Source: Tetracentron sinense | Lineage: Eukaryota; Streptophyta; Magnoliopsida; Trochodendrales; Trochodendraceae | Length of the DNA stretch: 64,000 nucleotides | Reading direction: 5' to 3' | Assembly: GCA_015143295.1 (NCBI GenBank) | Contig: CM026570.1 | Coordinates: forward strand, 20,219,250 to 20,283,249 | Shown here: piece by piece, positions 4,640 to 44,300 of the stretch | Numbering within the stretch: position 1 is the first letter of the stretch | Layout of the letters: every line of letters begins with the position of its first letter | Program-made: the position numbers and the translations under genes | Notes under the pieces: model-generated | What the model was told of the DNA's origin: nothing | The model's database searches: none | The model's input: only the letters and a program-made list of their open reading frames with translations

Positions 4640-5062
4640 CAAGGTTTTAAATTTTGTTGAGATTTCGTGAAATTCGGTTTTGTCCAACCCCAATGACATT
4701 GATACAAAGTGGATTTCAAAAATCACGATTTCGGCTGAAATTTTGGGTCAAATTTCAGTTTTCGGAATTTCGGTGATATTTCATAAATTTATTTTTAAAT
4801 TGGTTTTTTAATTAAAATTCTGAAATATTCTGAAATATTTTGATATTTTTTTGAAATTTCATGAAATTTATATATTAATTTCAAAAACAAAATAATAATA
4901 TTTATATAAATATATAAAATTTTAATAATTTTTTTAGTATTTTAACATATATATTTAACAAAATATTAATAAATTGGAATCCGAAATTTCACCGAGATAC
5001 CGCAAAATTTCGGGATTTTGGTTCGGGTTGGCCAACCGAAATTTTCAGGATTTCAAACCTTG
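4640..5062. mobile_element. hAT-like non-autonomous element, GAAATTTCGG word family, 423 bp
   Basis: It starts CAAGGTTTTAAAT and ends ATTTCAAACCTTG, giving matching inverted ends. The flanks are CTCTCCGT at 4632-4639 and CTCTCCGT at 5063-5070, a perfect 8-bp duplication as made by hAT transposases. The subterminal 150 bp on each side are filled with variants of GAAATTTCGG; the middle is AT-rich filler. There is no coding sequence. Confidence 0.87.
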
Positions 5063-5155
5063 CTCTCCGTCTAACCATGAATTGAAAGCGCAAACCCTAG
5101 ATACTCCCAAAACCAAACTTGTAATCCTCTCGAACTATACCTTTTCTAAAAATTA

Positions 5156-5332
5156 AGGTTAGATGTTTTAACCCTAAGAGTGAGTGAATCTTAACCATAA
5201 TTATAGGGAGTTAAAAAGGGACACATTTATTTTTTTTAATTTTTTTTTCTAAAAACCAAAGTTAGATGCTTTAACCCTAAGGGTTAATAATTCTTAACCA
5301 CAATTAAAGGGAGTTCAAAAGGCACACATCTT
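5156..5332 (+). repeat. small dispersed repeat family (two direct copies)
   Basis: Two adjacent copies of a roughly 75-bp unit: TTAGATG, TTTTAACCCTAAG, GAATCTTAACCA, AATTATAGGGAGTT, then GGGACACAT. The same unit recurs at 6372-6440 (reversed), 6534-6607, 6785-6868, 57489-57560, 57695-57780 (reversed), 60040-60125 and 60235-60315. The class is unknown; copies differ by substitutions and small indels. Confidence 0.7.
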
Positions 5333-6371
5333 TACCATGTTGTGTGTGTGTTTAGAGTGTGTATGTATTAGTTACATGGTAACGTTTCCATAAAAAAAAA
5401 AAATGTATTAGTTTCATGGTAACATTTCCATAAAAAAAAACTGTTTATATATTGCAAAGCAGGTACAACGTTGCTCAATCACTAGGTGGGTCTCAAGATT
5501 CAGATTTTCTAGACTCAAATGTCAGAACCTAAAAAAGAGAAATTCCAAAGTGCTTTGAAACTTTCTAGAGTCTAGACCCTGTCAGTACCTTAAAAAAAAA
5601 AACACTCCAAAATACCACCTAAAACTGATTGCTTTATCAGCTTTTTAGATGCAATGTCTGTTGATGAATTTCGTCTACTTCCCGCCGAAGTCTACCATGC
5701 AATTTCTCGCAAAAGCAGGCTTGCCTAGATTTTTGGGAAAGTAAGGAATTGCCTTCCAAGGACTTTTACTTCTACAGGAAATCAAATAAAAAATGGCAAA
5801 TCAAATGCCAACTTGTCGACTTTTGACTTCCTAAAAATTAGAAGTTATTGGAGAAGTATATCCAAACAACACCATAATATATGACTCTAAAGAGAGTTGC
5901 TTGTAGTAGTGCATCGCCTTTGAGTGTTAGGAAATTGCTTTCATGGAAGTCTGTTGTGATTACCAACAATGTAATTGTGTCTCACTTCATGATATATAAG
6001 AAGCTGACTTTCTAGCAAACTCGTTGTAAAGAATTACTAGCTAAGTTAACTTTGAGGTAGACCGGTAGAGTTAAGCCTATACAATAATATTTTTGATGTC
6101 TTCTAAGTCTTTTCTTTATTTTTGATTCGAGATATACATTTAGGTCACAACGCCGGTTAGGTGTTAGTATCTGTTCAGTTAGTGAGCGGGTGGAGAATAT
6201 ATACAAACTCCCACCCCGGTACCTCTCCCCAAAACTGGGGATACACTACCACTGGGACATATTGAAATTTTGAAATAATATTTTTTTTAATATAGCCATA
6301 GAATGGAGATCGAATCACATCCAATTGTGATTGGATTCGTGGACAATTCAATCATAGGCATAGGCCAACAC
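5333..6371. other. non-coding stretch
   Basis: No gene is seen. It includes a short direct duplication of ATGTATTAGTTWCATGGTAAC followed by an A-run (about 5363-5441) and the right part of the candidate element ending at 5875. The rest shows no recognisable domain. Confidence 0.5.
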
Positions 6372-7739: not shown

Positions 7740-7746
7740 GATAATA

Positions 7747-7905
7747 TGATAGATCATTTGAGTACGCCTGCCTTGGCACTAACTTTGACCACTTGCCCCC
7801 TGGTGTGTCCTTGTCTTGTGTCTTGCAACCTTTCATATTAAGCAATAATTGTATGGTAGTAAGGGGCTCTAGCACATTTTTGCATTGTCGCATTATACAA
7901 TACTA
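7747..7905 (+). repeat. direct repeat, copy 2
   Basis: Second copy of the block at 3359-3520, directly after the A-tail of the SINE-like unit. Confidence 0.7.
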
Positions 7906-8716: not shown

Positions 8717-8718
8717 AA

Positions 8719-8922: not shown

Positions 8923-11900
8923 GTATAATTCTTTGGATCTCTTCCCTAATCTAGGGTTTCGTATATATTCTTGGATATTTATTTATTTATTTGTTAATAC
9001 TTGTGTGGATTTTGGTGTATGTATACAGCAAACAGCTTCTGGACCAGGAAGAGGTGGATGTGGTTCATTCGCCTGACAAGGAAAAGGGCCTATCTGTGGA
9101 AGAAATCAAGCTAATTAAGATGCATATGGCCAATTGTAAGTTCTTCGATTGATTACTTTTATTTCCGGCTTTCAATTCAATACCATGTATTGATTCTATT
9201 GGCTTTAGTTATTTCCAGTTCTCTTATCTAGGTTCCAGCTCCCTTTTTTTGTGAATTTATTGGGGATTGTGAAGGTTTGGGATTTTTATTTGAGTTTCTT
9301 TCATCTGGGGTTCTTATATTTATCCTTAAAAATAATCTTTAACTCCTAATCACTTGGTTTGTGTAATTTTTTTTATTAGCGGTATATTACCTTCCGGTAT
9401 GATTTTCAGTGATTTTATTGAGGATTCTTATCCGGGTTACATTCATTTGTCTAGTGAGTAGTGACCATGGTTTCTGGGAAGCTATGTACAGGGTGGGATG
9501 CTCGCTTTCCATGTTAGTATCTAAGGAAGCTTGCTTCCATCACATCCAATTTAGTGGTCAAAGAGGGGAGGGGAGGGGAGGGGGCGTGATGGGATAGACC
9601 CGAGTCTACAGCCTGGGGTGTAGCCATGTAGACCCTAAGAAAGTATTGCTCGATTGGAACCTATAGAGCCTATTTCTCCACGCCTATCTCATGTATGGAT
9701 GCCCATATTAATATATTGGAACTATGGCACCCATATCTCATTTCTTGTTTCCGAAAGATTTTGTGAACCTCGTTTCTCGCATTCACTTTGTTTCTTGTTT
9801 TCGCTCATCGCTCCAGGAATGGTTTTATAGGTTTTTGTTAATGCAAGAGCTTAACATAAACATGATGGAAGAAAATTCAGGAAAAAAAAAAAGATATCCT
9901 CTTCGAGGGGATGCAATACCACCAAATATGATGTAATTTGAATCATTGTTTAATCAAAACAAAATAATTTGCCCTTTCAACAATTTTATCAAATCTTATC
10001 CCTAACAATACACTCCCCTTTCAATATTTCCCATAAGGTTGGAGGTTTGGGAATCAATCTTGGAGCTTATGGAGGGTCTCCCTTGTGGCATCTTTTTTTT
10101 TGATCGATAACAAGCAAATAAGTCACAAGAAATTACTGATCAAAATAAAAAATTATTAAGAAACAAAGAAGGGAAACAATAGAGGAAGTGGGAAGAATGG
10201 AGCACTACCTGGGTCAAGGATAATCAGCGGACCAACAAGAAAAGAAAAATACATCAGTCATAAAAAGAAAAACTTCACTAACAATAACATTCTTGGCAAC
10301 ACCTTCCTTGTCCAAAGAATAAGCTAGCTCGTTAGCCGATCTGGGAATCCACAAGATGAGATATTCATTACGATCTCCAAATGGCATATCTCTCTAATGA
10401 CGAAAGTGTATCCCCAAGGCCTAACTCATAACCTGTCACCCATCTAATAGCATTTCTGAAATTGATCTCAATGATTAAGAAAGAGGAATCAAGGGGGGCT
10501 TAAATGGAAGCTACCTAGCCTGAAGGAATGGATTTCAGCTTGGTTCGAAATCTACAGGACATACCTTCCTCCTGTCCTTGCTGTTACATCAAACCAGCAC
10601 CTTCCCCATTTCTGTCCAACCTACTGTACAGCCCCCACAGACCTGTCACACCTGTTCGCCAACTCTCATAAGGCTGCCGCACCATTCCAGCCTTCTGTCC
10701 CTGGCACCCTGCTGTACCAAGTCTCCTACAGTCCTTTTTTGATTGCTACAGTCCCTTTATACCTGCCCTATTGCAGCCATACCTAGTTCCATTAACCTAA
10801 AACCCTAATTCCTAACCCTAATTTTCATTACCCTTTATTGTTATTGCTGCTGGGTTTTCTTATATTCAATTCTACATTACTTTAAACCCTAATGACATGG
10901 GTGTTATTATCCCCACTAATTATTGAGCCTAGACTTTTTTTTAAAAAAAAAAAAAAAAATCCTCAATTAAGTTTGAAAACTACCTTGATTATTGATTGAA
11001 ATTCCTAATCTAGTGAAATTTCCCACTTCCATTATGATCACCCAAATCCAGTTAGGGAAATATTACTGCGGGATTGTTATTTGACCTATGACATTAGTAG
11101 TTCCCTTGAAATTTTCATTATAATTGTGGAATCTAGATAGTTTATGATATTTATTATTGTTGCAATTAAACTTTATGATCTCACAATCATGTATCCTAGG
11201 GTAGTTGCATGGTCCTGCATCAGTGTGCCTTTTTAGTTAGTTGCTTTTCAGTTATACTATAGATTTCATGGTTCAAAACTCGTCGAAACCATTAAGTAAC
11301 AGCCGTATGTAACTGTTGAATACTGTATAGTATATTGTACCTCTATGGTATAGTAGACCTTTGGGTGTTACTAAGATAGAGTGTATGTAGTAATGACATA
11401 CTTGTAATTATCTAGATGTTAAGTATATAGTCTAACGAATGAGAGAGAAGAGCTAATCTCTCTATTCTTTCTTTTTCTTTTCTTTTTCTTCTTCTTCTTC
11501 TTCCCCTTCTCCTTCTTCCTTCTTTCAAACCCTAACCTTAAACTAAACTAATCAAGTCAACTTGGTATTAAAGCATCTCAAGATTTAAAGGGCCGTACGG
11601 CCAAGGTATGGATGATCTAGCTTTTTCTCCCATCTAATGAGTCTTGATGTGTCAGAATTTGTGGTATTGGTTTCAAAATTTTTGAGTGGTCTTGGTTTCA
11701 AAATTTTTGAGGCATGGAGATGGGAGTTTTTTGAAGTTAGTTGGTTGTGTTTGGTTCATATAGGAATTCCGAAGATTTGGTGGATGTCTCATGTTGATTG
11801 ATGGAATATTGAAGCTCCGGTATGGATTTTACTCAATAGATATCGTGAAAAAGGTGTTTTTTGGATTGTTTGGCAAAACTTTTCAATGACAATGTGTATA

Positions 11901-14900
11901 GGAGATGATATTTGGTCTCTCTTGAAGTTGGGTGCCCCCTAAATGTTTGAGGAAAGTTGTGTGAGAGTGAAAAGTGTTCCATGAAGGTGACGTGCAAGTT
12001 GGGTGCCCTCTAAATGTTTAAAGAAAGTTATGTGAAGTTGGAAATGTTGTTTTGGATCCCCCAAGTGTTTGGAAAAAAATGTGTGGAAGTGAAAAGTGTT
12101 CCATGAAGGGGATGTGCAAGTTGGGTGCCCTCCAAGTGTTTGAAGAAATTTGTGTGAAGTTGGAAATGTTGTTTTGGGTTGTGTAAACCCTTTGCGTGAA
12201 GTTGAAAGTATTGATTTTGGTTGTGTATCCATTTGTGGTGGTAGTTTAAGGAATTGATTTGTGCAAATCAGTCCCCTTGAAGTGTAATGGGTGTCTTGGA
12301 AGTGAGCCAAGACCTCTCTAACCTTGTGACTAATGGTGGGAAGTGCACCTTGGACATGAGGATGCCCCAAATGTGCAAATCACTACCATTAAGTTGAATG
12401 GTAGCAATTTTTTAGCATGATTACAATCTGTTATGTTGTTTGTGAAGGGAAAAGGAAAGATGGGGTACTTGAGGGGTACCATTCTTATGCTTGAGGAAAC
12501 TGATAAGGCCTTTGACAAGTGAGAGATAGAGAATGCAACTATCATGTCTTGGCCTTAACTCTATGCAGCCCGACATTAGCAGTAGCTAGATGTTCCTTTC
12601 CACGACTAAGGAGATATGGAATGTTGGCACCCAGACCTACTTGGAGGTGGGGAATGGAGCTTGAGGGGGTAGATCTGGTGATAGTATGAGAGGTCGATTT
12701 GGTGGTAGAGGCCACTCCAATGCTTATACCTTTATCTTTGCTGCAGACGATAGTGCATTCTCTCATGATGAGATGGAGTATATCAGGCTCTTTATGGCTT
12801 AGTTAGAACCCTCATCTGCACCTTCTACATCCTCTTTTGCCAACACAGGTACTTCTGCCTCAGCTCTCAATGCCTCGGCCTCAACACACATCCACCCTTG
12901 GATCATTGATTCAGGTGCATCCGACCATATGACTGGTATGTCTTCCCTTTTTACGTCGTACCTTATCTGTTTAGGTAAAGATAAGGTTCATATTGCCAAT
13001 GACACTTCTTCTTCCAATGCCGAAAAAGGCAGTGTACCTGTTACTCCTATGCCTTTATCATCTGTTCTTTATGTCCCAAATTTCGCTTAAATCTCCTTTC
13101 TGTTAGTAACATTACACAATTGTTAAATTGTAGTGTTACATTTATTTCCTCTCATTATATTTTCAGTACTTGGGGACGAAGAAGACAATTGGTATGGGAT
13201 ATTAGGAGGGAGTATTGTATGCGTTGGACCCACTACCACGTGTTGCATTACCTGTCCAGCAGATCGTATCGGGTGCTCGACATATTACTACTGAGGAGCA
13301 ATTGCTATAGTGACATCATCGTCTTGATCATCCGTCTTTTTTGTAACTTAAGCGTTCATTTGCTTAGTTGCTTATTTCCAGTTATGTTAGTTTTTTTCAA
13401 TGTGAGTCATGAGTTGGCTAAATATTGTAGAACTTCTTACCCTTCTCGTGGGAACAAAAGTGACTCTCTTTTTGCTGCTGTTCATTTTGATGTATGGGGT
13501 CCTTCCCCAGTCCCCTCATTATCTGGTTTTCCATATTTTGTTAGCTTTGTGGATGATATCTCACGTACTATCTAGGCTTATCTTCTTAAATCTAAAAGTG
13601 AGGTTTGCCCAGTCTTTAAATCTTTTCATGCCATGATTATTACTCAGTTTGATGCGAAACTTAAAATCCTTGGATCCAATAATGGAGGATAATATATGTC
13701 TGGGGCTTTTATCTCTTATTTTGATAGTCATGACATTATTCATCAGGCCACTTGTGCCAGTACTCTTCAGCAAAATGGTGTGACTGAGTGAAAGAATCAT
13801 CACTTGTTGAAAGTGACCAGGTCTTTGTTGTTTGGGTCTTCTGGTCTCATGCTCTTTTAAATGTAGTATCTCTCATTAATCACATGTCATGTTGTATTTT
13901 GGATTTCCAGATCCCTATTCAGGTGCTATCCCTCTCTATGTGTTTGTTTCCCATTCCTCTCAAAGTGTTTGGGTCCATTTGCTTCGTTCATATCGCTTGT
14001 TCTGACTGTACAAAGCTTGATCCCAAGGCTCTCAAGTGTTGTATTCCTTGGGCCCGCTTCGAGTCAGAAGGGCTACCAATGTTATCATCCTTCTCGTCGG
14101 GTATTTGTCTCTATGGATATGACATTCTTTGAGTCTATTTCCTTTCATTTTAACAGGAAGACCTCTCTTGAAGAGGTGAGTATTAGTGAAGTGATGCCTT
14201 CTGAGTTTCCTCTGCCAATTCTAGCTTCATTGTGGTGGCCGGGAATGACTATAATGAAATGGGAAAACTAAAGAGCAAGTTGATAACTGAATTTGAGATC
14301 AAGGATTTGTGCCGTCTGAAGTGCTTCCCAGGGATGGAAGTTGCTAGATCAAAGGAAGGTATCTTTGTCGCTCAGAGAAAGTATGTGCTTTACTTACTTG
14401 AGAAGACTAGGATGATGGGGTGTAAACCTAGTGACACCCCTATTGATGTGATCTACAGGCTTAGTGAAGACAGTGGGGAACATTTTCTTTTCAGATTCAG
14501 GAAGGTACCAGAGACTTGTAGGGCGCCTAATTTACCTCTCTTTGACCAGGGCAGACATTGCATATGCTGTCAGTGTTATCAGTTAGTTTATGCACGCACT
14601 GACCTCAGGACATCTGGAGGCAGTGTATAGAATACTCAGGTATATCAAGTCCACTCTTGGGAAAGGATTGATGTATGCTAGTTATGATGACTTATGGATA
14701 GAAGCTTACACAGATGCAGACTGGGCAGGCTCAATTACTAATAGGCGCTCCACGTCTGGGTATTGTTCCTTTGTGGGTGACAACCTTGTGACATTGAGGA
14801 GCAAGAAACAACTAATGGTAGCCAGGTCTAGTGCAGAAGCAGAGTTTAAAACTATGACACATCGGGTATGTGAACTCCTATGGATTCGATTGTTACTTTC

Positions 14901-17900
14901 AGAGTTGGGGTTCTTGCTCAAGGACCCATGAGTCTATACTATGACAATAAGGTGACAACCAGTATAGCTCATAATCCTATGCAACATGATCGCACGAAAC
15001 ATATTGAAGTTGATCATCACTTTATCAAGGAAAAGTTGAGATCGGGCAACATTTGCACTCCTTTTGTGAAGATCGGGGATCAACTAGCGGATGTTTTGAC
15101 CAAAGGATTGGGGAGACCTCAATTCATTAGTATTATTAGCAAGTTAGGCATGAGGGATTTCTATGAACCAACTTGAGGGTGAGTGTTGAATACTAGTTAG
15201 TCTATGGTACCTCTATGGTATAGGGTGTTACTATGATAGAGTGTATGTAGTAATGGCATACTTGTAATATTCATTTTAGATGTTAGTCTAATGAATGAGA
15301 AAAGAGCTAAGCTCTATTTTTTCTTTTTCTCTATTTTTTCTTCTTCTTCTTCTTCTTCTTCCTATTCTCTTTCTTCTTTCAAACCCTAACCCTAAACTAA
15401 ACTCATCAAGTCAACTGTAACGGTTTTGGTAGGCAGCCTACTGTTAAAATCAATGACCCTATAAAAAAAAATTAGGTCATAAGACTCAGACGTTATGTTT
15501 TATGTAATGTTCGTAACGATCGAACATTATGTAACATAGGATTCAGTATGTGATTTTTGACTTAAAAAGGTTCTCAAAACCCTGAACCCATTTACCCCTT
15601 TTCTCTCTTACTTTTCCTTTTACATCTGAAAACCGAAACTCCATTTGTTTATGTTTATAAAAAATAAGATTTGAAGCTTTAATCTTCGAATTAAAGCTTT
15701 GAATCTCAAGGACTCTAAAAGTGAACATGAGGTTTTTCTATGCAATAAGTGTTCCGTTTAAAAAAAATTTAAATCATGTATTTTAGTCACTAAATCTTGT
15801 GCGTTTAAATGATTTATTCATTTCCTTTTTTAAATTTATAATGATTCTTTTCGAAAAAAATCAGTTGGCTGTTACGTATTGTCCTTTACATAACATTATC
15901 GTTTGGAACCGTTAAGTAACCCAAAATCGTATTTTAAAACTTTAATAGATATCTCCCTCTTTCTTAATATGAGTGCAATGTTGAACTAAATGCAAGGATT
16001 AGAATATGGGTTTTAGGGTACATAACGTTTAACTGAAACCATTACGTTTTGTCAATATTGATACGTATAAAGTATTTTTAAAACAAATTAATTCAATGTA
16101 TCTTCTGAAACAAATATGTCAGTCAAGTGTTACTGATACCGTCGTGCGTATTAGACGTTATTTATAATACAGGCTTTTGAAGGTGAGGTGTGAAACAAGT
16201 CCTACCGATACGTATCAGATCCGAGATGTATCGGTTTCGGACGAGTCATATCCAAGGTTCTAAATGTCGATATCGCTCGACATGTCGAGCCGTGGAGAAA
16301 GGATTTATCAGGGATATATGACATGATATATTATTTATCGTTGATTTTTGGAAAAATGGGCAAAACATGAAATTTTGCAATGAAACTGCATGAAATGCTA
16401 AAATAGATGTTAATACACATTTGAGAATTAAAACTTAAAAAAAAAAATACAATATACATAAGAGATGCAATGGGAAGGGGGCAAAGATGTGTGTTGACGA
16501 CATAATGTATGATTGTTTCATATTCCTAAATCATAACTTACATAAAATGTTTCGACAGACTCTCCAAGGCAATGTGATTGGTAGCGAAGTGCGTCACCCT
16601 TGGCCGTACTATTTCATTACCACACAATCCAACCCACCCCAAGAACTACAATCACAGAGCCTCCTGGAGTTACGCAGAGACTCAGACTCATCTCTGTCTT
16701 GACTAGGCTGACAATAGTATTGGTTCTCCACATAAGTACAATATTGTGCCCATCTTATCACATTATGGTACAATGATTTATCCTCATGTACATAACATTG
16801 TTAGTCATCTGGCCCAAGATGTAGCAATACTCCCATCAATGGATATTGTGGGTATTGATGCACAATTGTCACTGGCACTGCCTCATAAGGCTGTACACTT
16901 CCATACTCATATCCATATGGCTCATACCCATAAACATATCCATAGGATTCTTTTGGAAGTTAAATTTGTAGTTATTTTAAATGGAGGGTACCTAGCTTAA
17001 ATGTAAGTTTTTTCTGCTGAATTGTTAGTTGACTTTCTAACCTTACAAATGAAAATATTTTTGAGGGATAAAATATGAGACTTTGCACTGGACTTTTGGG
17101 TTTTAGTAATGTTTTGATAAGGTAGGATTTATGAAATTTTAAGATTTATGAAAATACTTTAGCATTTGAAAGTTAAAATTTGACATAATTACCTAAAAGG
17201 CGCTAAAAGTGGATTTTATTCTTGAATTGGAAAGTTGACTTTTTATTTTTCAGGAATTTTGATCTAGAATATTTTTTTTTGAATTCAAATTGGGGTGGAA
17301 CCTAAAACCATTTACTTAAATGATATATAATTTAAATAAGCTATAAACAAAATTTGGCTATGTTTTGTAGCTTAAAAAAATCAGCATTCCTCATAATATC
17401 GTGCAATATCGACGATATATCGTTGATATTGTGCGATATGGTATAAAATTTATAGTTTCCCATGCAAATATGTCAGGGGGGGGGGGGGGGGGGGTGCGAT
17501 ATCGACATATATCGTCGACATTTCATTCAATGTTCGTAACTTATAAAACAATATTGGAAATATCGAGTGATATATCGGAGATATTTTGTAAGAAAAAAAA
17601 TATATGTAAAAGATATATTTTATCCTGCGATATCGGGGATATATTGAGGATATTTCAAATATGGTCATATCAATCCCTTAATAAGTAGTCTCATTATAAA
17701 TATCGTAGAGGGCTTCCCGAAACCAATACGTATTAGGCGACACTTATCGTTTTCTACTATTTTTATTACCATGACTAAATGTGATATACTTCTTTTCCTG
17801 ATCTAGTTGGAATTTTCTAGATTGTAGTTTTACAAAAATTATGGTATCTAACTTTGCCGTGTTGCTCTTTGCATTGCATTGCCCGTCCCAAGCCAGGATG

Positions 17901-26284: not shown

Positions 26285-26327
<43 letters not shown>

Positions 26328-29300
26328 TAGTAAAATTGCATGTTCATTGCACATAATAATATATTGAGGTTTTAGATAATTCGCGTTTAATAATTTAAAA
26401 CAAACTTTCTTTAGATAATTAGTAAAATCATTTAAATAGTTACTTAGAATTAATAAAGTTATTTAAAGTTTAATTAATCCATGACTTGTTTTCTTTTTTT
26501 TTTTGGTGATATCCATGACTTGTTTTCAAACAATATAATTCTATGCATATAGTAAAATTATATATAATAGTTCATTTTAAGTAGTAAATATATTTAAAAT
26601 AGTTATTTAACGTTTTGATTAATATGTTATTAGTAATAAATTTGAAAAGTGTTTACATAATTAATAATATTTTTTAAGATTTAATTAAGTTGAAACTAAT
26701 AATTACTTTTTTGAAAAAATTATTCTGCATAATTAGGTCGTTAGTAGACATCCTAGTTTCATTTATAATTAGTATTAATATTTTAAATAATTATTTGAAT
26801 CTTTTCAAAATAGTCATTTAAGGTTTCTATATTAGGTAGGTTACTTATAACAAACTTTCATTAGTAATTGTTTTTTAAAGTTATTATACATATATATAGT
26901 AAAAATATTCAATATAGGTCAACCAAATTTATTATTACTTTCCTAAAATAATTCCTTAAAATTTATTTTATTCGAAATTTCTATTTGAAACAGTGTTTTA
27001 AAAGGTGTGAGAGACTTTTATACCTCAAGGCTCGCCTTGAGGCGAGGCTCAAGGAAAATGCCTTTGAGGCTCAACCGTGACTCTGTGAGGCTTAAATCTC
27101 ATGAGGCTAACACCTCAAATGTGAGGTTCACTTTATGTTTAAGGTATGTGCCTCATACATTAATCAAAAATAGGGTTCTAGCCACATAATTGAGCCTTGA
27201 ACATTAATTTTTTAAAGGCGTGTGCTGTATACATTAAACACAAATAGGGCTGTAGCTACATAACTAAGACTTAAACATGGTCGGATTATTGCAGTTATAA
27301 TCGATTATGCTGATAAACGCCGCTATCAATAAGTGTTGTGGTCAATAAGCGCTGATTCTATAATCCTGTTTGGTGGCACTCTGTTGATAAGCGATTATCT
27401 AGTCAATTTTAAGAAGGGTATTTTAGTTCTTTTTGAGAAAAATAAAAATATTTTTTAAAATCTATCTTTTAAGCTTAATGGATCTTGTAGGCCTTACTGA
27501 GTGCAAATCTGGGTGCTTATAATAATTTTCACATAATATTAAAGGTCATAAGTGGTTACGCTACACAATAATCACCCTTTGACGAGATTATGGAATCGTC
27601 GGTTATTTCCATAATCGGTTATTACATAAACGCTTATGACAAGTTGAACCAAACACTATTATGGGGCATAATCCGGACAAAAGCGATTATGTACCAAATA
27701 AGCGCTTATAATAATTCGAGCCAAACGGGCCCTAAATTAAGGTTTGTTCCTCATAATTTCTTTTATCAATAACTATATATATATATATATATATAATTGT
27801 ATTATTAGTATAGATTAACTCTTAATTTATTTTGTCTAACATAATTAGGCTTTTTAAATCGTTGTTGAGTATATTTCACTTTAATTTTCATAGTAGACAT
27901 TGCAAAGATTTGCAGTCATTATCTAACATATGTGTTGTAATTGTTTGTTGGAATCGAAAATCAACCACACGATTGAACATTATCCATCTATCAATATGTA
28001 TATGAATAAAAAAATAAACCTAAATTTTAGCTTTTCTTACCTCTTAATTATTATTTTTTTTTTTTTGTGGATGAAAAATTTATATAGTATACATATGCGT
28101 GTGTGTACACACACACATATATTACCGCTCATTATTATTTTTATAATATTCTTATTTATTTGTTCGTTAAAATGAGGTAGCTTAAGGCTTTCTTGTGAGG
28201 CTTAAGCCTCACCCCTCGAGGCTTACGCCTCACCCATCTTGAGGTCCTAACACTACACCCCATGTTTCGTGTTTCAAAACACTGATTTTAAGTACTTTAC
28301 TTGTAATAGAACTACTAATCTAAACTTGTATGTACGTAATACCTATAGTTTCCCAAATTATCTTAAATCTACGCAGAAATCAAATATTATTAATTAGTAT
28401 TTATCAGAGTTATTTCTTAGTTTGAGTTCATAGAGATTTATTGGTGGTTGTAGATTACTAGTAGGTCTTGCTATTATGTAATATTGGGGGTATATTGTAT
28501 AAGGGCATATATGTAATATTCTCTCTTAATAGAAGATGCTAGTAGGGTTCTCTATCCCTAACTAAGCAATTTTCCCTAATTTCTCTTATTCTCTTCTCTA
28601 AACCCTAAAACCTCTAAACTTATTCTCCAACTTGGTATCAGAGCCACAACAAAGGAAGAGATAGCTTGTTAAAACCGGAGGCAAGAACCAAATGAAGAAG
28701 ACACACTGGGTGATGTTTAAATGAAATCATAGACCATTAGCAAATATAAAAAAGAAATAAGAAAATGATCTATTTGTTCCATGTTTAAATGAAATCATAA
28801 ACCATCGTTGGAAATAACACGAATCAAGAAAACATTATCATTTAAAAAAAAAATGAAAAACATAAAAAAAAAAAAAACCAATTCTCAGAAGCATAACAAT
28901 TTAAAATGCCTAAAATTTAATCAATAATGGTGGTAAGTGCTATGAGAAAACCTAATCAGAACCTGACCCATTGGTCCATTACATCAAACATATCAACCTT
29001 GAGGCTCATCTTGAACGTGTTACATAACTAAAATAATTTTAAGCATGAAGAGAGCTTGGACACCTTAATAATATCATTCAGTTGGCATTGGAAGATCCAA
29101 GGATCCAACACATCAAAGCAATCGGTATCCAAAACAATCTCACCGATTGCTTTGGATGTGTGCATCTTAGAGGTGATCAGGGATTGGAAAATCACATAAG
29201 GACAGTTACAATGAATGTTTGGAAATCAATTCTCAACCATGATTTTTAATTTTAGTAATTTTTTTTTTAAGAAACACACATACAAACTGCACGCACACAC

Positions 29301-32300: not shown

Positions 32301-35300
32301 CAAGGGTTGTTTTGTATTTCTAACTCCTCTTTGACTCGAATCTTTGCTCAGTAGCGATTCACCCAAAACTTTAAAGCTTGTAAATTCTCATTTTAGTCTT
32401 CTTTCCTCGCATGACCCTGAAAATAATAAACACACGATAAATGTGCTCAAAGGGATTAACAAATACAGTTTAAGGTGCATAAATGTGTAACAATTAGCAC
32501 CGATCACAAAAAACCGAAATTAAGTTGAGTAGATTTATGAGAAGATAAGCACCATTAGTACCACCAAAGGAGCTCCAATTGCAAGCTTTTCTAAAGCTCC
32601 CAATGCTTCAAATGTGAAGCAATCATTACCAAATGCCCTAAACCGACCAACCCAAAATCTTGGAAAATTGGTGCGTCCTAATGTGCATTTTACTAGCACG
32701 GGCTAATCCATCCAAAATTCAGCCACTTGTAAATGTTTTCGATGTGGTGAAAGTGGACATGGATTCTTTGAATGTCCTAGGAAAGAAAATAATTTAACAT
32801 ACCTGGCCGAAGAAATTGAAGAGAATAATGAGGAAGAAGTCTTGTTGGGTAAACTAGAACTTGCTGATAATGTGCCAGAACATGTGGAAGATATGCAACC
32901 CAATGATGGTGACTTTTTGGTAATGCAAAGAATGTTAGGAGTTGAAAAATCAGATCTGGAACCATGGCCAAGATCTAATATTTTTCGAACTCGTGGCACT
33001 TCTAAAAGGAAGGTACATAACATTATTATCGATTCTGGAAGTTGTGGCAACATGGTGTCTGAAAAGATTGTGCAAAAGCTCAACCTTCCATGAGAAAATC
33101 ATCACCAACCTTATCACATTTCTTAGTTCAAAAAAGATAATGAAATACCAGTAACAAAGAAACAAAGAAGTGCTTGATTAATTTTTTCATTGGAAAAATT
33201 TATAAGGATACGGTATGGTGTGATGTAATGTCAATGGATGCATGTCATATCTTACTTGGATGACCTTGCCAATATGATCGAAAAGCCAAGCATGATGGAT
33301 TTAAAATTTTTAATTCTTTTATCAAAGAAGGAATTCATATCACTTTATGGCTTTTGAAACCTTCATTTAAAGTTGAATATGGTAAGAATTTGAGAACATT
33401 CTCTCTTTAAGGCAATTTGTTGAAGAAACAGGTGATGAATCATCTACCATGTTTGTGCTAATTTTTAATGGAATTTAACCACCCACTGATGTGGACTCAA
33501 AGGCCACCATCCCTAAAAAAATTCAGTCTCTTGATTTAGCTCCATTATCAGATCTCAAGAGATTGAGTTGTGATGCGGAGTCGTTTGCGAATCCTTTAAA
33601 GGAAATTCGTGAGGATGTTATGAAGAAAATTGAGCAAACTTATGCCAAGTACAAAGAAAATACGGATTTGCATCGGCGACATATTGAATTTAGAGAAGGT
33701 GACTTGGTTATAGTTTACCTTAAGAAGGAAAGATTTCCCTTTGACCAATATAGCAAGCTTAAATACAAGAAAATTCAGTCATGCCAGATTTTGAAGCGCA
33801 TTGGCAATAATGCATATGTCATTGATCTACTAAGTGACCTCAACATCTCTCCAATCTTCAATATATCGGATCTCCTTGCTTACCATGAGGTTGATCATCC
33901 CAATCCCGGTACTTCTCAAATTTCACAGGAGCAAGAGGAGATTCTTGAAATCCATGATTGGCGAAACATCACCTCCCGTAATCGGCGTACACTCACTATC
34001 TTATTCAATGGAAAGGAAAGCTGAAAACAGAAGTTACATGGATTTCAAATGATAATTTGTAAGCTATTAATGCAATAGTCTTGGAAAATTTCAAGAAGAA
34101 AAAATTAAGTTCGAGGGCGAACTTTCTCCAACTTGAGGTACTTGATGCAGGAGCATCCGGTTTTTTATTAATGGGTAAGACCAAAGTTTGGCCCAAGTTC
34201 ATGAGGGGGGCCCAAGCCCATAAACAAGATTTCTTTCTAGAAGAGCCCAAATTCACATGACCACATTTGGAGTAATGAGCTATCTTGGAAGTTGATCATA
34301 GGAAATTACACCATCCTAGTTACTTGTAGTTACATTTAATGCATGCTTAGTTACTTGTAGAAGCTTTTAGTTTTTATCTAGTAAGTTGTAGTAGTCATTA
34401 CCAAGGGTCCAAGACTTATTGAATGTGAGCCTCTTGATGTCTATTTAAACCAAGGGGGTTGTCCTTAGAAAATCAGTTTTTGAAGCACTACCGATATAGA
34501 AGACCTTGAGTCTTATATTTTTTCTTCAATCTTTGTGGATGTTTGATTGATTGTTGCAGTTTTCTCATTTGCACTTCATCAGAACCAAATTAAAAAAATA
34601 ATCGAATTGAAATTGTGTATATGGAGTACAATTTTAGTAAGGACAAGAACAATGACAAGGTGTTTTTAAATGGGATTCGAGGACTTGGGGAACATTCTTA
34701 ATTTTATTATTATTTAAAAAAAAGATTATTAAGTTTTGTTGTAGAGAGAACAAATTAAATATGGAAGCATAAATTATTGCAAATAACCGTAATCAAATAA
34801 AAAAGGATGCTACTATGAGCACACCAATATTTATTGACTAGACACCATTTAAAAGAAACAACTTTCTTTTTCTAAAAGAATGAATTGTCTATGAGCATCC
34901 AAACCCCTAAACCATCTTCTACAAACTTCTCCTTCTAAGAATGAACCTGTGAAGCTCTTCTTACCTTACCTTTAGAGAGCTGACGAGTTGTAGAAACACA
35001 AACTACTATCAGCTTATCAAACCTATTTTTTTTTCCTTTGTGTGTATCTTTTTGTCTCTTGTATTCCATTCTAGTGGAGTTTATGAATTTACTTTATCTT
35101 GAAATACCTTCCGAGTAATCAAAGTTTTAAATGTCGATATCTCTTGACATGTCGAGCTGCAGAAAAAGATATATCGGGGATATATCGCATGATATATCAT
35201 TTATCGGTGATTTTTGGAAAAAATGGCAAAATATGGAATTTTGCTGTGGAACTTCAGAAAATGTTAAAATAGATGTTAATACACCTCTAAGAATAAAAAC

Positions 35301-38300
35301 ATTTATAAAAACAATAATGTACATAAGAGATGCAATGAGAAGGGATCAGAGATCTGCATTGACAACACAATGTATGATTGATTCATATTTTTAAAACATA
35401 ACTAGCTATATAAAATGTTTCATTCATTTCTCAATTAATCATAAATTTATAATTTATAAGATTCATAACAATACATACATATATAATAGTAATCCAACCC
35501 ACCCCAAGAATCACTATCAAAATCAAAAGGAGTTACACAAAGACTCAACTACTACCGGCATTGGAAAATGAGTCCGTACACCTTTATACCCATATGAATG
35601 TGAGACACAAAAAAACACATCCATATGGATATTGGTCCTTTGGTTGTGCATAACTATGTTCATGAGAGCACAATTGTCACTAGCACTGCCAGATAAGGCT
35701 GTACCCCCATACTCATATTTATACAGCTCATACACAAAAATATATCCATATGATTTTTTTTAGAATTTCATCATCGGATGCGGGGAATGAATCTCAACCT
35801 GCCGTATTTCCGATCAAGGGATTACTCTCCGAGTTTTGCTGGTTGCTCAATCCGTCTGAAATTCGTAATTCAAATGGAGGGTACCCATAACATGCTTAAT
35901 TGTTTTTTTGGTAAAGCTTGAATTTAAAGTCTTTTTCTGCTACACTATTAGTTGACTTTTTGATCCTGTATAAAAATGTTTTTGAAGACTAAAATATGGC
36001 TTTTTTTATCGAACTTTTGAGTTTTAGTAATGTTTTGATATGATAAAATTTATGAAATTTTAAGATTTGAGAAATACCTTAAAATTTGAATCTTGGATAA
36101 AAAGCGGATTTTGTTTTTGAACTGATAAGTTGACTTTTTATTTTTCAGGAATTTGGATCTTGGATAATTTTTATTGAATTCAAATGAGGGGTGTAACCTT
36201 ATGTAAATAAAATAGAGTAAAGCAATGAGCTTCACTTTCATATCCAAAGGCAAAAGCCTTTATAAAAATAAAAATAAACACAAGTCGGTCGATATTGCAC
36301 GATATCGGCAATATATTGTCGATGTATCCTCGATTTCGACCGATATGGTATAAAAATTTTTAAACAACATGTAGATGTGTCACCAACCAGTGATATCCAT
36401 AAACATCGGCGATATATAGTTGATTTAGTTTGTGAGGTTATTAGGGTTGAAAGTTAGGGTTTGGGAGTTTAGTGTTTAAGAGAGAGGAAGAAGAAAGAGA
36501 AAGAGGTTTAGGAAAAAAAGTGAGAGATTAATGATCTTTCACACACTTTATTATTTATATTTCACTAATGGTTTACTATTAGTATATAAGAGCTACTAAT
36601 AGTAGACCCACAATACAATATATAAGAGATAATATTAAGACAAAACCCTTAGGAATAAAGCCTATAAAGCCTTATTGAGGCGTTAAACTGAGTGACAATC
36701 ATTGTATGAAAAGAAAGAAAAATAGTGTCAATTTCACCCTTAGATTTCAACATATACACTCATGTAGTATGAGAAAAATCATCTACATAAGTAACAAAAT
36801 ACTTAAAATTACAGGATAAAGTAATAGGGGATAGTCCCAACACATCATAATGCACAAGAGAAAGTAGTGAATTGCATTTATTTCCATTATAGGGATATGA
36901 AGTTCGACAATGTTTTACAAATTCACAAGTTTCACACTGAAAAGAAGAAAACGTACTAGAAACAGATAAATGCGGAAACAAATGCCTAAGAAGGGAAATG
37001 GAGGGGTGGCTGAGACGTCTGTGCCATCGGTATAACTCCTTTGTACTACTAATACTCCGAACACCATAGGGTATCTGTTGGACTGATGAAGCAATGCGAG
37101 GTAAAGGGTCGAGCAGATACAGTCCTCATTCCTCATGGCCCATACCAATCGTCCTCTTCGTTTCCAAGTCCTAAAACACAATGAAAATAAAAGAAAGTGA
37201 CGTTACAGTTCAATGATTTGGTAATATGACTAACGGATAAAAGATTCAAGGTGAACTTAGGAACATAAAGAATAGAGGAAAAGGACAGAGGGTGTAACAT
37301 CAACACTATCCTTACCCGCAATGGATGATAAAGTACCATCCACAATTTTACCTTTGTGTCTACCAGAATCAATGAAGTAAAGATGAAAAAAGGAAGACAT
37401 ACCAGTCATATGATCAGATGCTCCTGAATCAATGATCTAGGAGCGACTATGATTGGAAACAGATGCACTGAGAGCCGAGGCTGAGGTTCCTGAGTAAGGG
37501 ACTAAGGCAACATTGGCGATACTCGGTGTCTCCAACTAGGACATAAAACGGCCGAAGGCATCGATCTCATCTCGAGACATGTGAGGGCTATCAGATGGAG
37601 GTACAGTAGTAGATACTGGGGCTATGGATGTAACAAAGTTTGCACTCGAACCCCCTCTAGGTCTTCTATCCTTGTCTCCTCGTCCACCACTAGGACCCCG
37701 TGGGGGTGGACGACCATGTAGATCCCAACAAGTGTCTTTTGTATGACGTGTGCGCCCACAGTGGTCACTTTTAAGTTTGTCCCGATCATCAGTAGAAGGT
37801 CCAAAAGATTCAAAACCCCGCTGGATTGAGGAGGCTAGTGTAGATCTATCAATAATGGGAGGAGGGAGCATAGCACTCCGACGACGCTCCTCATGGTGTA
37901 AGTATGCATAGAATATATTAGGAGGTGGGACCGGGTCTTTGCCAAGTATTTGAACCCTGACTTGTTTATAGTCCATATTCAGCCCTGCAAGTAGCTCAAA
38001 CACCCGATTCTGTTCAACCAATTTTGTATAAGCAACCGCATTCTTAGGACACTCAGCCTGGAAGGTTTGATAATGATCTAGCTCTTCCCAGAGATGGCGA
38101 AAAGTAGAGTAGTAGGTGGGATAGACATATCCCTTGCTTGAATTGTGAGATACTCTGACACAACTCATAAACACGGGCTATACCCCTATCTCAGAATAGG
38201 TCTGTGTCACGACTGCCCATATAGCTTTTACAGAAGGAAGGAATAGGTAGGCACTATTGATGTCTGGCTGCATAGAGTGGAGAAGCCATGACATTACAAC

Positions 38301-41300
38301 TATATTCTTAACTTTCCACTTAGCATAGACTAGATTTGTAGACTTGGGAATGGAGATAGTACCTTTTAAGTATCTCATCTTCCCTTTGCTTTTAACAAAC
38401 AACATTACAGATTGAGACTAAGTAAGAAACTTTGTCTCATCTAACTTCACTATAGTAATCTGGAGGTTTGGTGCATCACTAGCAGTAACCCCAATACTCC
38501 CTCCACCCTGTACAGGGACACTAGAGGACTGGCTAACCTCAGATTCATTCATCATGAATGTCACAAGGTTGTTTTACACAAATAAACCTGAAGATAGTAC
38601 TAATCTTCAAAAAACAGCAACAAGCTAGGGTTCCACAACCCAAAAAACATTCCACAATAGATAGAATAGTCATAAACACCAAAAACAGCAACCCGACACC
38701 AACCTAACAGTGTTCGGGATAATAGAAATCCATAGAACCCCCACCAGGCATATACCAATTTTCAAGTAACAAAAAAGGGCCCCAATAGTAAGAAAAGAGC
38801 AATTATTAGGATGAAAAACTTTCGTCAGACATTCAATACTTCTCCGATCTTCACAAAACTTGTTTCAATCTGTCAATATTTATTATATAGATCAAACACA
38901 TTAGGTTTGAGTATCCAAAAAACTCCATAGGTTTGAGTCTCCAAAAAACTCCTAAATCAATCGCACAATCCAAAAAATAGATCTGAATTTTTGACGAAAA
39001 CTCGGAAAAAAGTACATCTCTATTTCTCATAAAATTCTCAAAAAATAACCACAATTCTCAGAAAATTACGATTTATCACATGGAACGATAAAAAAAATTC
39101 TAACGCAAAAAAATTTGATGCAATTCTGACAATCCATACTGTACGACTGACATCAACACTTTGAGTTCGTCTCTGGGTCTTTCCTTTGGTTCTGATACCT
39201 AGTTGGTTTAGTTTGTGAGGTTATTACGATTGGAAGTTAGAGTTTGAGAGTTTAGGGTTTGAGAGAGAGAAAGGAGGAGATTAGGTTTAGGAAAAAATAG
39301 TGAGAGATTAATTATCTCTCTCACACACTTTATTATTTATATTCCATTAATGGTCTACTATTAGTATATAAGAGCTACTAATTGTAGACCCACAATACAG
39401 TATATAAGAGATAACATAAAGACAAGGCCCATAGGAATAAAGCCCATAAAGCCTTATTCAACATATATCGCCGATATTGTCAATTTTTTGAACCCTATGA
39501 GTATTAAGAAATTGTTTCTTGCTCTTTATTTTGAGATAAACATCCTATTGGTCATTTTTCAAATAATTTGATTTCCTCCACCCCTTTTTAACGTTGAGTT
39601 TCCTATGATCTTTTGTTGCAAGCTCTAACCTACACAAAATAGGGGTGCAATATATACGGAATTGAGTATGATTCCTTTGACACCAATTTATTGGACCTTC
39701 AGTTGGGTTTGGGTCCACCAAAAGGGGAATGAATTATCATGTTTTATGGTTTTAAGTTTAGAATGGTGTACAATTAAAAAATTTATAGGTATTTTGTTAC
39801 CTCTTGGTGTGCTCGTATAATTTGTTATATTTTAATGGTGTACAGTTGGTATGTTATATATTTGGTGTTCAGTCAGTAAATATTGGAGTGCTCGTAGCAG
39901 CATCCTAAAAAGTTTTAATGAAAGTTTTTATATTCAAAAGTCAAAATAGGAGATATATTCAATTTATAAAAAATAACTACAATGATTAATCATTCATTTA
40001 TCAAGTATTCAACAAGAAACATTTTAAAGTTATCAATCTATAAATGAATATTTTTTTTTGATTGATAAAGGCACAAAATATATTAAAAAGAAGAACCTAA
40101 TTACAAAGGCATGAAAGTTCAAGAAGTTAAAGTTCACAAGCAAATAAACTCAAATGCAACTAAAAGTATGGCTATCATGGCCTCTTAGCTTGATACACGG
40201 CTCTCAACCCAATATCTCCTGAAGTACCTCACCATCACTTCGAAGCCCCACTCATTCCAAAGCAACCATCCTAATGTGCGCACGAATGCGAGAGGGGGAT
40301 GATGAAGAGTGCTCAAAGACTCAAAGATTTCGCTCTTTCCATATCATCCAAGAGATGGCTCAGGTAGAATCGATCATATCTTTTTCTGAGCACCATCCAC
40401 ACTGACCAATCTATAAATGAATATTATTTTCAATTCATCAAACAATATAAAGAAAATTGTAGTTGTTAAAGGTGTTGCCTAAGCGCCTCAGGCGGTATCC
40501 TAGGCAACTAGGCGCGCTCTGTTAGGCTCAGGCAATTGGCTGCCTAGGCGGTCATTATTAAAATCGGATATATGTAATATTATTATTATTTAAGAATATA
40601 AAAAATTATTTTATTTGAAGATAGTAGTTTGGTAAACAAAAAAATATTCTATTTTATATACTTCTCATGTCTTTTACCATATATTATGTTAAGGTTTATA
40701 TATCTAACAAAATAAAAAAAGGTTTGCAATAGAAGAAATAAGAGACAAATGGTATCGCGTATGTTTGTCTCATGTTAACCTGTCATCTCTCGCTCAATGG
40801 GTCGACCAATTGGTCTCCCCCTCTGTTTTGAGTGGACCATATGGTTCCTATTTGTTTTTTGCATGGTTGTGAAAGGCGTTGTTTAGGTGACCAAGAATAC
40901 AACTAGGCTCGGGCGGCCTAATTTTTTTTTAAAGTCCATTAAATGCTCCAAATTCCTTCTAGGATCCCCCAAACTCTCATGAACCTATATTAAAGGGGTC
41001 TTTTACAATATAAATAAGTGCATGCCCCGTAATTATATATAGTACTTATTATATGGTTTTTTATTACTTTTTTTGAGTAAAATCGAGATGCATGAAGAAA
41101 GAAGGAAGGAGAGTAAGAGGTATAACCCCTGTCTTCTCACCCTTATTCGGTGTCACATTGACTATCAGGCTATTTTATGTTTTTATTCAATCCTCCACTT
41201 TCTCTCATCTCTCTTACCTGTTCGGCAGTCACTGTAGACTGTTGTTTCTTTCTATTTTTTTTAATCTCTCACAATCCCTCTCCTTCTCCCTTTCGATAGT

Positions 41301-44300
41301 CATTGTAGACTTTGTTTTTTTGTTTCATTTTTTTATTCTCTACACTTGAAACCCTCTTTATCATTTATAGAATTGTCTTTAAGGATGGTTTAATCCTAGT
41401 GCATATTCACCATGAAGATTTTGCTTTATTCAAGGAAATGTATCATTTATAGATCTCACATTATGCGCCTCAGGCTACCGCCTCAGGCGTCCATGGGATC
41501 TGTTACCTAGTCGCCTTCATAACCACGAAGAAAACATGAAATTGAAGAAAATGAAGTAATGAACAAATAATACTTCCTTTTCCTTTTCTTGGTATATATT
41601 ATCTCTAATTTATCGATAAAAAATGATTTTTTTAATCAAAAGTAATAAGTCAAACAATTGAACAACTAGCAAGCAAAGTTCAAGAGTTAATTTGCATGGT
41701 TGAATGGTGTGATGATTTAGATTTGACTGTTGAAATGTTTGCTAATAAGACACATTGATACTAATCTTACCCTTAATCCCTCACCAACTTCATTATACCA
41801 ACTTCTTATTTCAAGATTTAGCTTTTGATAAATCTTTTATAACAAAATAAATTCTGAAGTCAAAGTGTCAAACAAGAAGGGATAAGTTTGTGTCCTAATC
41901 CATGTCCAAACTCCAAACATATGGATAGTAATTTAGAAACAACATGCGATTCAACATCGGGATCCATGTCCACATGTATGGACACATGATTCGCCCGAAG
42001 GCTCGAAGAATCTGCTGCGCATCATAGCTCATATACTACATATTCCCCAACTAAACTATAAGTTGTTGGATGTATGAGTATTGTACCCAATCAGCCTCTA
42101 TTTAAGTGCCATGTAACCCTCATCTCATTAATGAAGCAATGCAATCTACCTTGTTCAAAGTTAAAATGTTATGCGAGCGATGATCTGCCGCCTTTGGTAG
42201 TCTTCTGTTGATTTCATCTTCTAAAGGGCGGTATTGTCGTGCCTCTCGCCAAACCCCACAACCTTGTTTAATTTTTTTTTCTGTCTTCCGTTCTGTTTTA
42301 TGTGTGGTGTTCTCATATTTTCTCAGTCGGGAATACTGACCAGCTGCTGTTTTATCCAATCTGGTAAATAAATTTGGTTAGTTGCTTTTTGGGTTGTTCA
42401 TATGGTGTTTTGATTTCTGTTTTTGAGGAGTTGGATTTGATGATTTTAATGGGTTTAGAAGAAAGTAGTTGTAAAGGGTTCTACTGATGGTTCTTATGAT
42501 TTTCCTGCCTTTTGAGTGTTTTCTTGACCAAATTTGTTTTGGAGATCGCCATTCCAGTTGCTTCAGTGATGACCATGATTTTGTTCATGCTTTTTTTGCC
42601 GCCCCCAAAGAAGAAATGCATCGCGAGAAGGAAAAAAATTAGGGTTTCTTAACTTGGATGTGTTTGGGCCATGGCCCTTTTTTCAGTTTTGCCTCATTTA
42701 TTAGTTGGGGCAAGGACTCAAGCCCTTATGTATTTGGCCCGTTAAGGGCACTGTGTGTGGCCCACAGAGGTGTGTGTTTGGCCATAGTGTTTGTGTGTTC
42801 CTTGGCCCATAAAGGCCAATGGTTTCTTGGCCCATTGACGCCAGTGTGTTTCTTGGCCCGTTGAGGCTCATGTGTTTGGCCCAATGGGGCTCTGTGTTTG
42901 GCCCTTGAGGCCTGTATTGCTTGTTCGTTAAGTCCCATTGTGGCCCGTTTCCTTGGCCCATATCCCTGATTTGTTGCAGCTCGCAGACCAGTTGAAGCCC
43001 TTTTAGCTTAAAGTGTTTTCTGTTCGCCAAACTCTAGATGGTAACCCATTTTGAATTTGACAGGGGTGTTTGATGTTTGAGTGTTGTACCCAATCAGCAC
43101 TCTTAAGAGGTATTTTAGTATTTTCATTGTTTCTCCCTTTATTTATATCCCATGTAAGCCTAATCTCATTAACGAGGTCCAGCTTATTCAAAATTAACAT
43201 AAGCTATAGTTTTTGAATCAGTCTGAGTTATTGGCTCAAAATTGCAAGTGGGTCATTCACCTCATTCCTTTCAGTTTTGTATCTAGATCAGAGTTTGAAA
43301 ACTCGTTGAGTTGACTCGAAACTAGGCCAAGTTACTTGACTCAACTGAATTTCGAGTTGAGTCACCTAAAAAATCAAATGGGACACTATTCGGTGAGTTA
43401 CTTAGGTGACTCGTTCGAGTCGAGTTTTTCTACTCACCAGACTTGGTCGAGTGACGAAAGAGTATTTTTCTTATTTTCATTTTTCACTTAAAACCTAAAC
43501 TCAAACATCACACTGTTTTTGTATCAGATTTTTTGGGGCTGCAAAACCAGCCTACTATGGATAAAGTTAAACATGATTTTCAGGAGGTTTGAGGCTGCAA
43601 AACAAGCCTACTTTGGGTTCTTTTAACCCAAGTTTTTCAAATTTTTTGTGGTTCGATCTTGGATAAAATGCCAAGAATTTGGTAATTGCTTAATTGGTAT
43701 ATATATATTTCGAGTTGGACCGCGTCGAGTTTTTTGAGTTTCCGAGTTATGGGACCTGGCTAACTTTCGAGTCAAGTCGACTTTTCGGGTTTTTGAACCA
43801 TGATCTAGATTACTTCTGGACTCGAGGAGATCACTGTGGATCCAACCGTAGTTGTTGGTGCAAACCTGAAATGATGACAAATGATATGTGAACTTTAAGT
43901 TTATCTGTTAGGCTGATAGTTTAATCTTTCCAAGGATTATTAGTACAATAAACTTAAACAGGAAAAGATTCTTCAATAGCTCATTACATTCTAAACCTGC
44001 AGACCTTCTCAATTTAAGAGCCACCCTGTGGGGGAGGGGGGTTGCATTACCTTCCAATTTATTAATTAGACAGAAAGGTAACCTAATCAGGAGTGGAGTA
44101 GAAACATTGCCTTTAGGGAAAATCTAATGACAACAGACCTACGAGAATGCTATTATCTCGTATTAAATAAATCAATTGTATATAAAAAAAAAAAAACAGA
44201 TCCGAGACGTGCTTTGGTAAATTTCAAATCCCTTGCCATACAAATCACTGTGGACTAAACAGGTTTGGTGTGGTATGAAACTCACAACACTGTCCCTTTT

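Follow-up and report, generated by a model that had tools for sequence, protein, structure and literature searches.

Predicted BED-DUF659 transposase partners for short hAT-like elements of Tetracentron sinense that share tips and carry family-specific subterminal arrays

Background

In the Ac/Ds system, the Ac transposase binds a repeated AAACGG word cooperatively, target duplications are 8 bp long, terminal inverted repeats (TIRs) are short, and ends of 200 bp are needed; the non-autonomous elements share only the TIR and some of the repeats (PMC3260210; this and the following sources are cited for the parts consulted here). Herves provides a precedent for docking of a transposase at subterminal sites, and the Tag1 subterminal motifs AAACCC and TGACCC differ in their affinity for transposase (PMC3143072). 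We compared such systems with elements in a 64,000-nucleotide stretch of DNA (the window hereafter), which is part of the 1.16-Gb assembly of Tetracentron sinense (20219250-20283249). A first-pass annotation of the window had described eight non-coding hAT-like elements (E1 to E8) which share their ends and carry subterminal arrays of palindromic, family-specific words. Our analysis confirms this description in part and suggests that these elements are probably non-autonomous offspring of a co-resident radiation of BED-DUF659 hAT transposons, and the arrays are predicted to serve as a family address.

Binding of subterminal repeats by BED domains is known from Hermes, where cooperative binding involves two half-sites that form a quasi-palindrome (PMC10368747). 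Yellan et al. (2021) found that hAT-derived proteins of the BED type recognise a wide range of motifs, most of which contain CGG, and that for four hAT proteins the motif corresponds to sequence in their own subterminal regions; these CGG-binding proteins have BED and Hermes-type DNA-binding domains, and at least eight with distinct motifs occur in one genome (PMC8097297). Diverse BED specificity was already known from the consulted part of this work, and our finding is therefore less novel than the first-pass annotation held. In grapevine, Hatvine elements comprise several co-resident hAT families with TIRs of 8-23 bp and mostly 8-bp duplications (PMC2528002).

The elements of T. sinense resemble Ac/Ds in that AAACGG also contains CG and, by analogy, the CG in their half-sites (described below) fits the mostly CGG-containing motifs of hAT-derived proteins well. 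They differ in that Ac, in the consulted text, is one family with one word, and in that the transposases here carry DUF659. According to the same partial sources, the Tag1 motifs are without CG; Hermes, from the housefly, has the half-site AAGT and few palindromes, with no sister families with other words described; the proteins of Yellan et al. are mostly domesticated animal proteins (one is from a fungus) rather than plant families with arrays and shared tips; and family-specific subterminal words are not described for Hatvine. A literature search over titles and the openings of abstracts, with subscription papers little covered, found no description of a plant genome in which a radiation of co-resident families combines shared tips with matched arrays and orphan short elements. 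The division of one transposon lineage into families that cease to mobilise each other's short copies is, to our knowledge, an open question.

Autonomous elements with DUF659

A genome search with PF04937 (DUF659) gave 1783 candidates, of which 150 loci were scored, many with long open frames; 16 loci, selected for long frames and variety, were then read. Ten of the 16 have paired ends and 8/8 target duplications, and these elements are 3976-6323 bp long (Table 1). For L050 the outer pair of ends is given, as the best-scoring pair (TACGTAACGGTT) falls within the word array and was dropped. An eleventh autonomous element, at L063, carries the ACTCGG word and is nested in a short element of the CGATATATCG family, and thus the order in which the two families inserted can be read at this locus.

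A Pfam domain scan covered eight of the 11 autonomous elements. DUF659 was present in all eight, the hAT dimerisation region (Dimer_Tnp_hAT, PF05699) was above the curated cut-off in all eight exons, and zf-BED (PF02892) was above its cut-off in six. A C[EKG]RN?WS motif was found in all 11 autonomous elements, and the exon of L041 had no sequence match in the Protein Data Bank at E 0.1. In addition to PF05699 and the BED finger, these elements have further traits of hAT transposons, namely 8-bp target duplications (8/8 in the ten loci and in the inner element of L063) and short TIRs starting with CA or TA, from which E7 of the window departs.

Tips and subterminal arrays

In ten autonomous elements (20 ends), C1, G5, T6 and A11 each occurred in 20/20 and A2 and A12 each in 19/20, and the outer end core common to the families is CA..GT....AA. 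Other positions vary, with positions 7-10 differing by family (TTTA, AGTT, TGTT etc.). Thus, the idea that the elements have common ends holds for positions 1, 2, 5, 6, 11 and 12, but not for the remainder of the tip, nor for E7, whose tips are TGTAG and CGTGG rather than CA. The terminal repeat of Ac is CAGGGATGAAA, and this tip is not matched by the ten elements. The TIR of Tag1, a hAT element of Arabidopsis, starts with CAATGTTTTC and resembles the tips found here.

Full-length families carry one half-site each, arrayed in roughly the outer 200 bp at either end. In the autonomous families, the terminal 220 bp hold 2.6-4.8 half-sites per 100 bp, versus 0.00-0.10 inside. We compared the commonest 6-mer of the terminal 200 + 200 bp with 200 dinucleotide shuffles per element in 20 elements (11 autonomous, seven from the window and two further CGATATATCG copies), and in 18 of the 20 it was reached by 0/200 shuffles. 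The first-listed 6-mer contains CG in 9/11 autonomous elements. The repeat unit is a half-site of 5-6 bp with CG, present in both orientations, rather than a palindrome; the words look palindromic because half-sites stand back to back. Such pairing exceeded orientation shuffles in two of eight half-site groups, TAGGCG (13/2000) and TATCG (5/2000), and was not above the shuffles in the other six, so that the palindromic character previously assigned to the words is significant in these two groups only. GCCTAGGCG, GCCTCAGGCG and CTTGAGGC, which had been listed as distinct, look like variants on the half-site AGGCG and not independent words.

It may be asked whether the words serve the transposase at all, as they could instead attract a host protein or DNA methylation and thereby control transcription or silencing. 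The CG within the half-sites is in line with this, as is the ratio of observed to expected CpG, which in 11/11 autonomous elements is higher at the ends (0.76-2.44) than inside (0.40-0.64). However, arrays occur at both ends, including downstream of the gene, and also in elements with no recognised gene; each transposase clade has its own word, and a host factor would require no such difference; and E5 shows the opposite CpG trend, with less at the ends than in the interior. We therefore regard this explanation as unlikely, and note that a role of this kind can coexist with transposase docking.

Words on the transposase tree

The tree comprised 21 BED-DUF659 sequences, 17 from this genome and four from other plants. 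ACTCGG occupied one side of a branch (four rows, two of them near-identical) with support 100/99, and GAGGCG and TAGGCG, with two rows each, also each formed one side of a branch. When eight labels were placed on the tree ('none' and 'unknown' included), 7 changes were needed, which is the minimum; shuffled labels required 11.0 on average and were as low in 0/200. The word ACTCGG is retained at 54-73% transposase identity, and identity between words is 33-48%. TAGGCG and CTGAGGCG are related words: they are on neighbouring branches, with protein identity of 47-48% and a spectrum cosine of 0.57-0.62. The proposal that the words diverged together with several related transposases is thus borne out insofar as each clade has its own word. 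It is not for the families with GAAATTTCGG and CGATATATCG, for which, among the BED-DUF659 elements found, there was no autonomous copy with the same ends and words.

A single transposase might instead move all families through the shared tips, with the words being neutral repeats that drifted or slipped. The near-invariant tip core of the ten autonomous elements would be expected in this case, and tip similarity alone assigns none of E2, E5 and E8 to one partner. Yet several transposases are present, with the low identity between words given above, ACTCGG is kept among transposases down to 54% identity, and the words stand at both ends and are almost absent inside. These observations make a single transposase quite improbable.

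Five of the seven families of the window (E3 and E6 belong to one family, see below) could be matched by word to autonomous elements as putative partners, three of them well (E4, E7 and E8) and two weakly (E2 and E5). The best matches of word spectra were E4 with L043 (0.74), E8 with L045/L063 (0.73) and E7 with L048 (0.66). With regard to ends, E4 matches L043/L044 at 12/13 bases and E7 is best with L048 (10/13); the ends of E5 and E8 do not discriminate among partners. The L054 family (GAATCG) has no AATCG cluster in the window.

Several other candidates were rejected as partners. In 29 of the 30 top PF05699 loci (L009-L038), each word was present 0-2 times in the 1500 bp beyond the domain. 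L024, which has five CGATAT, was judged by eye to contain the end of a CGATATATCG element that was inserted independently in a stretch resembling a long interspersed nuclear element. L061/L063 was dismissed as the CGATATATCG transposase because its DUF659 gene belongs to the nested ACTCGG element. L064 carries the tail exon of E3, and no BED or DUF659 frame was seen there. Compared with 120 related proteins, the coding tail of E3 gave no hit below E 1.5, and when it served as the query, 0/53 candidates were recovered at E 0.001.

Genome-wide copies and chance expectation

For the E1 family, 40 of 1889 first-look candidates were scored, and the 39 other main matches among them were 75-92% identical. 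In this GAAATTTCGG family, 8/10 sampled copies had an unshifted 8-bp duplication of at least 7/8, three of them exact; in the control, 0/90 cross pairs reached at least 7/8 even with small shifts. For the E3 family (CGATATATCG), 16 loci gave 15 distinct copies, two loci being the same place. Of these 15 copies, eight had exact duplications, two had 7/8, and five had no recognised match; one of the five is a nested copy and shows 6/8 after the inner element is set aside. Random 8-mers equal the ten matches in 0-1.5%. The 8-bp duplications expected genome-wide from the first-pass annotation are thus present in both families. In the same family, 14 of 40 scored CGATATATCG ends were identical in score and length (161 bp, with 80-81% identity to E3), pointing to a subfamily that is homogeneous and young.

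We also scanned the window blindly for CANNGTTTTRAAA-like ends with at most 3 mismatches and duplications of at least 7/8. This gave 8 pairs, versus 6-15 in ten shifted controls, and three other patterns gave 12, 3 and 12. As the blind scan was no better than its controls, the duplications of the window are by themselves no evidence; the genome-wide copies are. It might be argued from this result, and from the exact words being rare or absent in the window, that the elements are an artefact, with AT-rich ends and imperfect duplications having been selected by eye from a single window. The duplications of genome copies in the two families and their controls, the 8/8 duplications of coding elements, and the arrays that exceed shuffles in 18/20 elements leave this explanation with hardly any probability, and for the group as a whole we consider it refuted; single weak elements (E5 and E6, each with 6/8) could be misjudged.

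Exact CGATATATCG occurs once in the whole window, at 17413 in E3, and TTATGTAAC occurs twice, at 15527 (E2) and 29019 (outside), which is close to the chance expectation; GACTCGAGT has zero occurrences in the whole window. The arrays of the window consist of near variants of the words, so that the reported family-specific arrays withstood the shuffle test but some of the exact words had been idealised. When a half-site cluster was defined as four or more half-sites within 130 bp, 11/11 window clusters of ACTCG, AGGCG, GAGGC and TATCG together were in or overlapped their own elements: 2/2 for ACTCG in or at E8, 2/2 for AGGCG in E7, 2/2 for GAGGC in E5, and 5/5 for TATCG in or overlapping E3/E6. 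TAACG, the half-site of E2, had zero clusters in the window. Words as common outside the elements as within them were not seen for the half-sites of the autonomous families, which are nearly absent in the interior of those elements, but for TTTCG and CTAGG 2/3 and 4/7 window clusters, respectively, sit outside elements.

A number of observations speak against the descent of the window elements from a BED-DUF659 radiation or limit its support. With respect to sampling, loci were picked for long open frames and half-sites were chosen after inspection. Six of the 16 DUF659 loci (L042, L046, L047, L049, L052 and L053) showed no ends in the stretch read; two of these, L046 and L049, are sisters of the word-bearing L054 and L050, and in L052 the ACTCGG clusters are confined to one side. 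In L048 and L054 zf-BED was below threshold, with both aligning to the same Cys/His pattern. On the tree, word groups are small (four or two rows) and helped by near-copies, the label 'none' is scattered (4 changes), and the BED contact region, inspected by eye, shows no obvious link to the words. In the short elements, the first-listed 6-mer has CG in only 4/9, shuffles reached the top word in E2 (22/200) and E7 (51/200), and CpG in E5 is 0.55 at the ends and 1.29 inside. As to partners, the match of E7 with L048 is barely above that with L044 (0.64), the word matches of E5 with L051 (0.41) and E2 with L050 (0.39) are weak, and the ends of E2 fit L039/L051 (11/13) slightly better than L050 (10). 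E1 (GAAATTTCGG) and E3/E6 (CGATATATCG) reach at most 0.24 and 0.21, respectively, with autonomous spectra.

Features of the window

All eight elements could be located with hAT-type ends and duplications. E3 and E6 are 82% identical across a 305-base alignment and form one family, and the eight elements therefore make seven families. A further GCCTAGGC copy, E4b, had been missed by the first-pass annotation; in an alignment of 134 bases it shares 72% identity with E4, and its 5' end was not recognised on reading the sequence at about 21649-21826. Target duplications are 8/8 in E1, E3 and E8, as had been reported for three elements, but five elements rather than four have 6-7 of 8 (7/8 in E2, E4 and E7; 6/8 in E5 and E6). 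The word of E5 lacks CG and may be a GAGGCG that decayed through loss of methylated CG. E3 has an open frame on the minus strand (16804-16959) that recurs in other copies.

Two elements are interrupted by long terminal repeat (LTR) retrotransposons. The LTRs of the insertion in E2 (11314-11562 and 15184-15416) are 81% identical, and an RVT_2 match lies in 14205-14630; a gag_pre-integrs match lies in 36760-37125 within the insertion in E6.

Table 1. Window features (window coordinates) and elements elsewhere in the genome (L loci), with their words and target duplications
Feature	Position	Strand	Description	Word or half-site	Target duplication
E1	4640..5062	.	non-coding hAT element, 423 bp	(A)AATTTCGG; half-site TTTCGG	CTCTCCGT at 4632-4639 and 5063-5070, 8/8
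E2, first part	11267..11313	.		GTAAC / TATGTAAC	ATAGATTT at 11259-11266
Insertion in E2	11314..15416	+	copia-type LTR retrotransposon		own, 5 bp, GTAAC
E2, second part	15417..15944	.			ATAGATAT at 15945-15952, 7/8 against ATAGATTT
E3	16253..17663	.	1411 bp	CGATATATCG; half-site TATCG	GTCATATC, 8/8
E4b	~21649..21826	.	second GCCTAGGC element; 3' end CTACACTG, same as E4		
E4	24385..24576	.	192 bp	GCCTAGGCG; half-site TAGGCG	ATCAACAA/ATCAACAG, 7/8
E5	26991..28284	.	1294 bp	GAGGC	ATTTGAAA/ATTTTAAG, 6/8
E6, first part	35120..36417	.	E3 family		CGAGTAAT at 35112-35119
Insertion in E6	36418..39463	-	LTR retrotransposon, boundaries set by eye		own, 5 bp, TATAT
E6, last part	39464..39497	.			TGAGTATT at 39498-39505, 6/8 against CGAGTAAT
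E7	40458..41527	.	1070 bp	GCCTCAGGCG; half-site AGGCG	AAGAAAAT/AAGAAAAC, 7/8
E8	43289..43802	.	514 bp	half-site ACTCG	ATCTAGAT, 8/8
L039			autonomous	half-site GAGGCG	CCCCGGAC, 8/8
L040			autonomous; 5' tip CTCTG; ends located by hand via word clusters	half-site ACTCGG	CTTTGAGC, 8/8
L041			autonomous	half-site ACTCGG	GTTTCAAT, 8/8
L043			autonomous	half-site TAGGCG	GCTACACA, 8/8
L044			autonomous	half-site TAGGCG	ATTGAGAG, 8/8
L045			autonomous	half-site ACTCGG	CCAAGAGA, 8/8
L048			autonomous	CTGAGGCG; half-site CAGGCG/GAGGCG in CGCCTGAGGCG	CATGGAGA, 8/8
L050			autonomous; outer ends CATGGTTTCAAA/CAGGGTTCGAAA	half-site GTAACGG	GTTTCAAC, 8/8
L051			autonomous	half-site GAGGCG	GTTTGATG, 8/8
L054	2022-6405 (gene-strand)		autonomous; ends CAGTGTTGTTAA/CAAGGTTGTTAA	GAATCG	GTCAAGAG, 8/8
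L063, inner			autonomous	half-site ACTCGG	CTCAAAAG, 8/8
L063, outer			short element	half-site TATCG	
L003			short element	half-site TATCG	

Several other features were observed in the window. Another CpG-rich array seems to neighbor or enclose E3, at 16100-16252 on the left (CCGATACGTATC...GTATCGG) and 17664-17760 on the right (CCAATACGTATTAGG); it may represent an additional family whose word is GATACGTATC. At E4, a 42-bp tandem duplication (24544-24623) spans the 3' end and the target duplication and produces a second apparent end at 24618. A cluster of the E4 core outside recognised elements, at 62822-62940, has 14 CTAGG in 119 bp and lies in a GGTTTACCTAGG repeat. The palindrome GCGATCGATCGC / GATCGATCGG forms clusters rich in CpG at 54860-54960 and 32140-32180, which could be assigned to none of the elements, and 842-3047 contains dense inverted and direct repeats on units such as AAAACCACCGAAAATAAGCAC. 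An open frame at 50976-51362, possibly part of a host gene, matches a cyclin C-terminal domain below threshold (E 0.005). An Rfam scan gave no match above the gathering score.

A possible modular code

If the window elements are offspring of the BED-DUF659 radiation, their movement could be pictured as follows. The catalytic core of the transposase would read and cut the shared tip, and the BED fingers of the transposase oligomer would dock on the array; such binding is inferred from Ac, Hermes and the CGG-binding proteins. By the same analogy, the array beside the tips probably tells an enzyme which copies to move. With docking on the array and cutting at the shared tip, a short element would obey the transposase whose word it carries and move only with it, the array acting as the address of the family. 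Words and BED fingers would have changed together, whereas the tip, tied to catalysis, would have stayed. Methylation of the clustered CG sites may additionally turn docking on or off. More specifically, and as a tentative proposal that we hold to be possible rather than likely, the elements may follow a modular code, in which the catalytic core recognises an invariant tip and the BED finger recognises adjacent half-sites composed of an invariant CG and a family-specific prefix of 3-4 bases, resulting in insulated families whose docking is methylation-sensitive.

If this proposal is true, a few BED changes together with array turnover would create a new insulated transposon family within one genome. 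In this one genome, six word classes come with a transposase and a further two without, and the words can be read from sequence alone. Divergence of transposase specificity thereby becomes testable, and there is a simple route to proposing a helper transposase for orphan short elements. Natural DNA-binding fingers whose sites are predicted could also be drawn from these families.

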